From a virus, in IMG/VR virus record IMGVR_UViG_3300022074_000019, positions 1-64,000 of that record: a stretch of DNA of 64,000 nucleotides, one strand, 5' to 3'. Of this stretch, positions 22,393 to 26,128 are shown piece after piece. Positions within the stretch are counted from its first letter, which is position 1, and every line of letters begins with the position of its first letter. The notes below the pieces were generated by a model. That model was not told the DNA's origin and did not search any database. It worked only from the letters and a program-made list of their open reading frames with translations. A program made the position numbers and the translations under genes.

Positions 22393-22443
22393 ACAGTAAT
22401 TGAATGTTCGCCGTGGACTTCGGTTATTTCGTAACATTGAGTT

Positions 22444-22947: not shown

Positions 22948-22976
22948 GAGTATTAATAGCTACAATTAAATTACAT

Positions 22977-23022
22977 CGTTCATCCCTAAAGGGACGCAAG
23001 TAAGGCAGAGCCTGAAGGAACG
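22977..23022 (+). promoter_or_regulatory. Glutamine riboswitch (glnA / Downstream-peptide RNA type)
   Basis: CGTTC at 22977-22981 is the exact complement of GAACG at 23018-23022 (closing stem P1). Inside are TCCC-TAAA-GGGA (P2) and AGGC-AGA-GCCT (P3). The joining sequences ATCC, GGACGCAAGTA and TGAAGGAACG are close to the conserved core of the glnA and Downstream-peptide RNAs, which bind glutamine in cyanobacteria and their phages. It ends 31 bases before a short gene with ribosome binding site GGAGG, exactly the Downstream-peptide arrangement. It should couple expression of the peptide to nitrogen status. Confidence 0.85.
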
Positions 23023-23053
23023 GGAAATTTCTTAAACACTATGGAGGTTTCCA

Positions 23054-23245
23054 ATGTCTAACGTAATGATTCGTGGTCTCATGAAAGTCCACAAAGATAA
23101 CCGTCGTGCTAGCAATGAGCAGGCACGCGAACTCAACCATCTTCGCAGTCGCTCCTACCGTGGAGTTCCTACTAAGAACACCAACTGGATTACCGCTGAT
23201 GTTCACGGTAATTTTGTTTATCGTGGTGTTGCTTACACCAAATGA
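23054..23245 (+). CDS. Riboswitch-controlled small peptide, DUF4278-like
   Basis: 63 residues, basic, with S-Y-R-G-V-P and a second V-Y-R-G-V-A-Y near the C terminus, the repeated Y-R-G-x-x-Y motif of DUF4278 peptides found in cyanobacteria. Short proteins of this sort sit behind glutamine riboswitches in picocyanobacteria, and some related glutamine-controlled peptides inhibit glutamine synthetase. Here it is the only gene behind the riboswitch and has GGAGG at 23044-23048. A likely role is to retune host nitrogen metabolism during infection; the exact target is unknown. Confidence 0.75.
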   Translation: MSNVMIRGLMKVHKDNRRASNEQARELNHLRSRSYRGVPTKNTNWITADVHGNFVYRGVAYTK

Positions 23246-23249
23246 AATA

Positions 23250-23273
23250 GCCGGCTAACGCCGGCTTTTTTCT
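23250..23273 (+). terminator. TAAC-loop terminator (copy 6), end of the left arm
   Basis: GCCGGC-TAAC-GCCGGC at 23250-23265 followed by TTTTTT. The loop-closing pair is C-G, while copies 1, 4 and 5 have T-A. It separates the + arm from the convergent - strand operon. Confidence 0.85.
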
Positions 23274-23279
23274 ACTTTT

Positions 23280-23591
23280 TTATGAATAAAGATCTTCGTA
23301 GATATCGTCACTCATTTTAGGTCTAAAGGATTCACTCATTTGTTTATCCTGTCCAATTTCTCTATAGCGTTCTTGCTGAATACCAATACCTGGACTCTGC
23401 CCACCAGTGCCAGGTGTACGAATCTCTGTACGCTTTGGACCATTGGCTGCATAAGCTTGCCTACCATTCCAAGCACGAGCTTTCTTAAGAGCTTGACGTT
23501 GTTTACTTACAGCACCTGTACGTGTCAATGAATCTTTATCTTGATCAGAGACACGCCGTAAGTCAGTTTTTTCAGTGCGGAACCCTGCCAC
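23280..23591 (-). CDS. Basic disordered hypothetical protein
   Basis: 103 residues, rich in Arg, Lys, Gln, Gly. No folded domain visible. It starts with GTG overlapping the previous gene by 20 bases, and is the last gene of the - operon that begins at 25206. Start choice is uncertain. Confidence 0.5.
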   Translation of the reverse strand: MAGFRTEKTDLRRVSDQDKDSLTRTGAVSKQRQALKKARAWNGRQAYAANGPKRTEIRTPGTGGQSPGIGIQQERYREIGQDKQMSESFRPKMSDDIYEDLYS

Positions 23592-24079: not shown

Positions 24080-24409
24080 TCACATCATCATGAGACCATC
24101 GTTGTCGATGTCATCGTCTTCCCAACCTGGGTCCATAATATCGGTGGGCATATTGTCATCTTCTGACTGCATCTTCAGCAGTTCAATGAATGTTTCTTCT
24201 GAAAGAATTTCAGGTAATCCTTCTTGCTTCTCTTCAATTTTGAAAACAACTCCGTTCTGAAGAAGCACATTCTGGACGCCGTTCTTCTGCTGCATGCGGG
24301 ACTTGAGAAGTTTAACTGCAGTTCGCTCTAGTTCGTGCCGGCTCATACGAGATACTTCATATCGCGCACGCTGTAGTGCAAACCGTTGTTCTATCGTCAA
24401 ATCCTTCAT
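24080..24409 (-). CDS. nblA: NblA-like phycobilisome degradation adaptor
   Basis: 109 residues. The first 50 match the NblA pattern: L-T-I-E-Q-R-F-A-L-Q, R-Y-E-V-x-R-M-S-R-H-E-L-E, then a second helix with L-L-K-S-R-M-Q-Q-K-N and L-L-Q-N-G. NblA dimers bind phycobilisomes and hand them to the Clp protease, and phage copies are thought to strip antennae for amino acids. Cellular NblA is about 60 residues; this one has a 50-residue acidic, Met- and Asp-rich tail. The start overlaps the HNH gene by 53 bases. The match is by pattern only. Confidence 0.6.
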   Translation of the reverse strand: MKDLTIEQRFALQRARYEVSRMSRHELERTAVKLLKSRMQQKNGVQNVLLQNGVVFKIEEKQEGLPEILSEETFIELLKMQSEDDNMPTDIMDPGWEDDDIDNDGLMMM

Positions 24410-25230: not shown

Positions 25231-25350
25231 ATTCTAACTACCACGCTAACCACACTAAACCACGTAAGTTTCTATATACCTATTCTTTTATTCCTTCTAC
25301 TTAGGTTTTAATTAAGCAGTTTATAGGGACTAGTGTGGTAACTGCGGTTT
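25231..25350 (-). promoter_or_regulatory. Repeat-bearing control region B (inverted relative of region A)
   Basis: On the - strand: CGTGG (25264-25260), TGTGG (25254-25250), CGTGG (25245-25241), spaced 10 and 9 as in region A, then a -10-like TAGAAT at 25236-25231, 25 bases before the first gene. Upstream are TATATAG-AAACT and, at the far end, AAACCGC; the order matches region A over about 110 bases. It fills the gap between the integrase stop and the small membrane gene. Best read as a shared operator/promoter; attP or integrase arm sites are possible. Confidence 0.5.
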
Positions 25351-26128
25351 ACTGTAGTTTTTGCAGCTGCTCGTATTTATCTTCTAGCAGGATGTGGCCG
25401 TATTGAGCTGTCATTCCTGCAGGAACATGACCAATAATCGAGGCAGCAATGCTGTATTCAATTCCCGCTTTACGCATTCGTGTTGCGATGTTGTGCCTAA
25501 TGCCGTGAGCTGAGTGACCACAGCGCCGTTTCATGTAGCGACTGAAGTAATCACCCGCCTTAGGGTTAGTGTTAAAAGGGAAATTTTCGATAAATCTACG
25601 GTACTTATGATGGATAGGCACTTCTCGCCGGCTGGGCTCATTCTTGATTCCACGTACTTCATTATCGATAATGCTGAAGTGTGGGCATGGGTGATTTAAA
25701 ATAATATCTTCTGGTTTCAAGCAGGCCAGCTCATTCACTCTGAAGCCGTGATACCACAGTCCCATAAAGAGTGGATGTTCTGTTAGTCCAACCTCTTCGT
25801 AATAACTAAGAGGAAGAAACGGATATTTTTTCTTTCCTCGCTTTAATCCTTTCAATGATCCTCGCCACGGATTATCGTCAACAATTTCCATTTGCTCGTA
25901 GCCAATTTGCCAAATGGTTCCGCAGTACCCCAGTTGCGTTCTCACATAGCTCTGCTTGTATCCCAAATTGTTCAGCTGTGCTCGTCGAAGGTTGACAAAT
26001 TTTTTGTCCACTTCTTCAACCGGTTTGTCTTCAAAACCTCTGATTGCGTACTGCCATCCCCTGAGCGTGGCAGGAGCAACAGGCTGATAGCCCGCAACCG
26101 CTTCCATCAGTTCTTGTGTTGTGAGCAT
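25349..26128 (-). CDS. int: Tyrosine recombinase / integrase
   Basis: 259 residues with all catalytic residues of the family in order: Arg130 in G-F-R-V-N-E-L, Lys162 or nearby, His208-x-x-Arg211 in H-G-I-R-H-N, His234 in I-I-G-H-V and the nucleophile Tyr243 in A-Q-Y-G-H. The N-terminal 100 residues are the SAM-like core-binding domain. It should recombine an attP site with a host attB, allowing integration. It is short for the family and has no clear arm-binding domain. A 360-base non-coding block lies upstream, region B downstream. Confidence 0.92.
   Translation of the reverse strand: MLTTQELMEAVAGYQPVAPATLRGWQYAIRGFEDKPVEEVDKKFVNLRRAQLNNLGYKQSYVRTQLGYCGTIWQIGYEQMEIVDDNPWRGSLKGLKRGKKKYPFLPLSYYEEVGLTEHPLFMGLWYHGFRVNELACLKPEDIILNHPCPHFSIIDNEVRGIKNEPSRREVPIHHKYRRFIENFPFNTNPKAGDYFSRYMKRRCGHSAHGIRHNIATRMRKAGIEYSIAASIIGHVPAGMTAQYGHILLEDKYEQLQKLQ

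Follow-up and report, generated by a model that had tools for sequence, protein, structure and literature searches.

The glutamine riboswitch class is already known, and so are its occurrence in phages and its association with cyanobacterial genes for DUF4278 proteins. Its mode of action is known as well: in a review (PMC6316151), the type-1 riboswitch of gifB and a type-2 riboswitch of Prochlorococcus are described as ON switches. Two cyanobacterial units come closest to the phage unit analyzed here. The leader of gifB (encoding IF17) in Synechocystis and that of PMM1846 in Prochlorococcus MED4, which encodes a DUF4278 protein, both place a glutamine riboswitch before a basic protein of the DUF4278 type, with an NtcA site in the promoter and output expected at nitrogen excess, as in the phage unit (PMC6316151). 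The gifB gene is subject to the same two layers of control, NtcA and a glutamine riboswitch (PMC6316151), whereas the phage protein has no recognized IF7-like synthetase-binding part. PMM1846 appears among the type-2 associations in the review (PMC6316151), whereas the phage RNA is of type 1; these two are compared by description. The NtcA-repressed genes gifA and gifB have their boxes within the core promoter, at -30.5 and -7.5 (PMC6316151), and the box of pirA, which is also NtcA-repressed, is in this promoter position as well (PMC8092223). PirA (Ssr0692) is a small, basic regulator made at nitrogen excess (PMC8092223), a likeness for which we claim no sequence relationship.

Among viruses, cyanophages have been reported to carry glutamine riboswitches (PMC9964418, PMC9602691), and NtcA sites are known from the T4-like ones (PMC3037559). 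Many T4-like cyanophages combine phage-borne glnA RNAs with PHROG_545 proteins in the same place, but their leaders are arranged in tandem and mostly fall under the Rfam cut-off, whereas the phage considered here, a member of the S-EIV1 lineage, carries just one aptamer. In the methylophage Melnitz, a glutamine riboswitch is present as well but is linked to a tmRNA gene (PMC9004378).

The locus is located in a stretch of 64,000 nucleotides (hereinafter the window) taken from a virus record of 77.9 kb (IMGVR_UViG_3300022074_000019). Profile searches identified genes for DNA polymerase A and an integrase; further genes encode a terminase, a major head protein, an endolysin, a helicase/primase and a sigma factor, and ORFs read by eye putatively correspond to psbA, talC, ribonucleotide reductase and thyX. 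Among isolates, Synechococcus phage S-EIV1 is the closest by terminase (54% identity); this relationship, together with the gene content, points to a cyanobacterial host, probably a phycobilisome-containing Synechococcus. An NblA-like protein of 109 aa is encoded on the minus strand about 1 kb away from the riboswitch (24080-24409; PF04485, 27.6 bits, cut-off 25). The gene occupies the same place in three S-EIV1-like contigs (G002, G009 and G020), and the match is weak in S-EIV1 itself; NblA promotes the degradation of phycobilisomes and is associated with nitrogen starvation. A tyrosine integrase gene (25349-26128, minus strand; PF00589, 32.6 bits) suggests that this S-EIV1-like phage might be capable of integration. 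One of the relatives, G009 (IMGVR 3300050343_000255, 106 kb), contains two terminase copies, the second of which is split, reflecting either a repeated assembly or a real duplication.

Infernal (cmscan) with the Rfam library produced a single Rfam match in the entire window, to the complete model (1-53) of RF01739, Glutamine, with a significant score above the gathering threshold (Table 1). The first-pass annotation had likened this RNA to both glnA and Downstream-peptide elements and had named both models as a check; the first likeness holds and the second does not, given that RF01704 (Glutamine-II, formerly Downstream-peptide) scores 20.4 bits against a cut-off of 33, and the aptamer is therefore assigned to the glnA (glutamine-I) type. 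The CGTTC/GAACG closing stem that it had described is P1, and the distance that it had given to the gene is exact, 31 nt between the end of the stem (23022) and the ATG (23054). The cmscan alignment contains no non-standard pairs and reproduces the three-way junction of P1, P2 and P3 with the conserved junction and binding-site bases. The glutamine-contacting positions of the crystal structure, as quoted in PMC6698751, correspond to C22977, G23022, C23021 and G22996. Judged by its sequence, the RNA is a member of the glutamine-I class and is predicted to bind glutamine; it departs from the class in being phage-borne and in having a C-G linchpin pair, as in glutamine-II, against the G-C consensus. 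The folding energy of the whole leader is ordinary (z -0.63). A weak Rfam resemblance to BSnc120 (23217-23290) is merely the terminator after the gene.

Table 1. Features of the riboswitch unit in the window
Feature	Coordinates	Strand	Basis
NtcA-type box GTATTAATAGCTAC (GTAN8TAC), repressor-type position over the -10 element	22950-22963	+	exact match; predicted binding
-10 element TACAAT	22961-22966	+	consensus scan; position conserved in relatives
Transcription start, expected	~22973	+	prediction
Glutamine-I (glnA) riboswitch aptamer, RF01739	22975-23026	+	53.3 bits, cut-off 35, E 7e-9
P1 (CGTTC/GAACG)	22977-22981/23018-23022	+	Rfam alignment, fold
P2	22983-22986/22991-22994	+	Rfam alignment, fold
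C22997, junction base, linchpin partner of G23023	22997	+	covariation, 148 phage aptamers
P3	23003-23006/23010-23013	+	Rfam alignment, fold
Expression platform, 10-bp helix pairing the Shine-Dalgarno GGAGG (23043-23047)	23023-23032/23043-23052	+	fold
63-aa basic small protein with two YRG motifs	23054-23245	+	ORF; PHROG_545, weak DUF4278
Intrinsic terminator directly after the gene	23249-23271	+	7-bp stem, 6 GC pairs, T run

The ligand-dependent linchpin pair of glutamine-I riboswitches has been described previously (PMC11477058), and its glutamine-II counterpart is C19-G41 (PMC6698751). In our mapping, the two partners are Rfam position 25 and position 50; the latter, which follows P1 immediately, was left free in both RNA search patterns. 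In a set of 148 distinct aptamers from phages, 113 have G-C at this pair, 33 C-G, one G-U and one C-C (95, 30, 1 and 1, respectively, once identical aptamers are removed), so that covariation is kept in 147 of the 148, counted as sequences rather than as independent events. The swap from G-C to C-G may reflect one or a few evolutionary events. The aptamer in the window, with C22997-G23023, belongs to the C-G subclass.

The helix that sequesters the Shine-Dalgarno sequence starts with the linchpin base, G23023, and adjoins P1 without an unpaired base. Folded alone, the helix has a minimum free energy of -10.6 kcal/mol (z -3.37), matched by 2 of 200 shuffles, and it is predicted in 31 of the 32 C-G subclass leaders with a probability near 1. 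The arms vary so little in this subclass that a permutation test has no power. In the G-C subclass, the arms vary yet pair (CACC/GGUG, CACUU/AAGUG, CAUCU/AGAUG, CAAUCU/AGAUUG): pairing from the first base extends over 4.96 bp on average compared to 3.58 +/- 0.14 in permuted sets, none of which (0/2000) was as high. Because P1 and the helix can coexist, as they do in the fold predicted by the thermodynamic model, switching would depend on one contested base and on tertiary structure that lies outside the program's model. Given that a single base can be in the linchpin or in the helix but never in both, glutamine would be expected to destabilize the helix and hence to switch translation on. This direction agrees with the behavior of type-1 and type-2 glutamine riboswitches as reported in PMC6316151.

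Upstream of the aptamer, the GTAN8TAC box overlaps the core promoter, the arrangement typical of NtcA-repressed promoters. The motif is present in 27 of the 35 promoters of the C-G subclass, invariably between -23 and -27 relative to P1, compared to a mean of 0.58 in shuffled sequences, and when the spacing in GTA-Nx-TAC is varied from 3 to 15, there are 27 matches at x = 8 and no more than two at any other value; these counts include related sequences repeatedly, and the box is found in 10 of 17 clusters formed at <70% identity. Its position suggests binding and repression by the host NtcA. The proposal in the first-pass annotation that the phage reads the nitrogen status of its host is thus supported at the sequence level and gains strength from this box, which had gone unmentioned there. 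Since the terminator follows the gene directly, the unit consists of one gene. A palindromic element, GTTCGCCGTGAAC, occurs once in each of 35 loci (among L006-L054), ~13 nt before the -10 element and nearly always immediately upstream of the riboswitch, and could be an operator or a phage promoter element. The window lacks it at that place and has a copy with one mismatch 570 nt upstream (22406-22418).

The gene encodes, as originally noted, 63 residues with two Y-R-G-V motifs (SYRGV and VYRGV). All seven differences from the near-identical locus L002 are in third positions and synonymous, which indicates that the gene is real. The DUF4278-like label stands in part. The match to DUF4278 (PF14105; 17.5 bits, E 0.005) does not reach the curated cut-off of 25.3 bits, but 14 of 20 family members match this domain at E up to 1 (best 8e-5), and residues 33-63 match PHROG_545, a family of unknown function, with E 1.6e-6, as do all 20 relatives. 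With this adjustment, the original description of a glnA-type glutamine riboswitch on a cyanophage before a DUF4278-like small gene is supported. In the AlphaFold2 prediction (mean pLDDT 79.7, pTM 0.40), residues 3-31 form a helix at the N-terminus and the C-terminal part contains a pair of strands. A Foldseek search with this model returned nothing below E 7, and comparison of the family profile with the sequences of solved structures gave a chance match only (E 1.4).

The RNA and the YRG gene travel together in phages, as two independent searches agree. A protein search identified 10 IMG/VR contigs that encode relatives, and RF01739 exceeds its cut-off in all 10. Conversely, a search by RNA pattern, in which the protein was not used, revealed YRG proteins in 30 of the 30 readable genes after C-G subclass aptamers; three further downstream genes run off contig ends and are outside this count. 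S-EIV1 has neither the RNA nor the protein, while both are present in the related contigs G002, G009 and G020, in a conserved order with the NblA-like gene. The protein family is represented in 371 phage records, all of them cyanophages. In T4-like cyanophages, PHROG_545 proteins are encoded just after glutamine-riboswitch-like leaders; these appeared in a first blastn view to be ordinary glnA RNAs, a reading that we rejected since cmscan identifies variant tandem elements, mostly under the cut-off. In L066, L067, L069, L070, L072, L073 and L074, the variant aptamer (~1500-1560) is followed by a second CGTTCATCC(C/T) with the ATG of the next gene. The start codon in the T4-like loci lies inside a copy of the P1/P2 5' strand, possibly a decoy-strand switch. 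A genome scan yielded four PHROG_545-like loci (L075-L078) in MAG contigs assigned to non-cyanobacteria (Blastopirellula, bacterium TMED88, Saprospiraceae and Euryarchaeota); in two of the four, the same riboswitch adjoins the gene, and these loci are probably mis-binned cyanophage DNA.

Aptamers of the G-C subclass mostly precede families other than YRG. In L083-L202, they are followed by many unrelated tiny basic ORFs of 31-78 aa, e.g., MSWTDYCRKREIDNYKKQQLLKLRQRKHYVD. All 114 distinct proteins encoded after phage glutamine-I aptamers, as called by a heuristic procedure, have a net positive charge (31-78 aa), compared to 50% of 114 small ORFs with a Shine-Dalgarno sequence from the same contigs.

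Taken together, we propose, with a probability of about 70%, that the unit is a single-gene nitrogen-excess module of a cyanophage, gated by NtcA and glutamine, whose protein is made only in a nitrogen-rich host. In a nitrogen-poor host, high 2-oxoglutarate would hold the host NtcA on the box over the -10 element and repress transcription, and any mRNA produced would remain untranslated, its Shine-Dalgarno sequence hidden in the helix directly below P1. In a nitrogen-rich host, NtcA would be released and glutamine would occupy the aptamer; C22997 would then be pulled in to pair with G23023, capping P1 and taking this base from the helix, which would open and allow translation of the small basic YRG protein. 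Repression by NtcA combined with activation by glutamine would thus restrict the protein to nitrogen-rich cells, an apparent AND gate.

The direction of the switch could be the reverse: by firming P1, on which the Shine-Dalgarno helix stacks without a gap, glutamine would turn translation off, and the protein would be made under nitrogen starvation. The abutting stems and their coexistence in the predicted fold are compatible with such an arrangement, but the linchpin requires the first base of the helix, so the two cannot both be complete; the cyanobacterial glutamine riboswitches that have been tested, of type 1 and type 2 alike, are ON switches (PMC6316151), and an NtcA box in this promoter position likewise favors expression at nitrogen excess. 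We consider an OFF switch quite improbable. Many riboswitches control transcription termination, and the unit does contain a terminator. However, it is the sole one and follows the gene, with none between the aptamer and the gene, and the helix covers the Shine-Dalgarno sequence, all of which makes control of termination instead of translation very unlikely. The suggestion that the gene and its leader are a recently acquired host passenger, useless to the phage, draws on the same kind of module being present in the host clade (PMM1846; PMC6316151). It is at odds with the purifying selection apparent from the comparison with L002, with the spread of the family among cyanophages, with the synteny kept in S-EIV1-like phages and with the preserved RNA pairing; this reading is already disfavored and deserves hardly any credence.

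A further possibility bears on the function of the protein within the nitrogen-excess module and is not an alternative to the switch itself: the protein could be a phage glutamine synthetase inactivating factor that binds the host enzyme like IF7/IF17, so that ammonium assimilation is stopped at nitrogen excess and glutamate and ATP are spared for the phage. The regulatory logic is that of gifB, DUF4278 forms the N-terminal portion of IF17 (PMC6316151), the protein is small, arginine-rich and basic, and its residues 3-18 locally show a faint resemblance to residues 4-19 of IF7. Nevertheless, hhalign against the family profile assigns a probability of 5% to homology with IF7 (the sole check of the query sequence being a 48.5% full-length match in Acaryochloris) and 5% to homology with an IF17-type protein, where the match is one short YRG motif only; no IF7-like synthetase-binding region was detected in either comparison. 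The part shared with the IF17-type protein is this motif and not the synthetase-binding C-terminus, and the moiety of IF17 with the DUF4278/YRG part has been described as dispensable for its function (PMC6316151). An inactivating factor thus seems unlikely, and the suggestion in the first-pass annotation that the peptide may act on nitrogen assimilation stays a conjecture. The protein probably exerts its effect through binding to a host protein involved in nitrogen or amino-acid metabolism.

In the open-licence literature, where absence is weak evidence, we did not find a base shared between linchpin and Shine-Dalgarno helix with covariation, the C-G phage subclass, an NtcA box over a phage riboswitch promoter or a glutamine riboswitch in the S-EIV1 lineage. 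With somewhat less than even confidence, we hypothesize that the glutamine-I riboswitches of aquatic phages are a general timing device, in which one nucleotide is common to the linchpin and the Shine-Dalgarno helix and whose outputs, tiny basic proteins of many unrelated kinds, reset the nitrogen metabolism of the host, with cyanophages adding NtcA to form a two-signal AND gate. The mechanism proposed for the window unit is unusually clear, with the sensor, the two inputs, the switch base and the output protein named to the nucleotide, and the sensing of host nitrogen by a phage and its response become directly testable. The shared base offers a simple structural account, backed by covariation, of how glutamine-I riboswitches would gate translation, and the aptamers lead to numerous tiny basic phage proteins that have yet to be studied and that probably regulate host metabolism.
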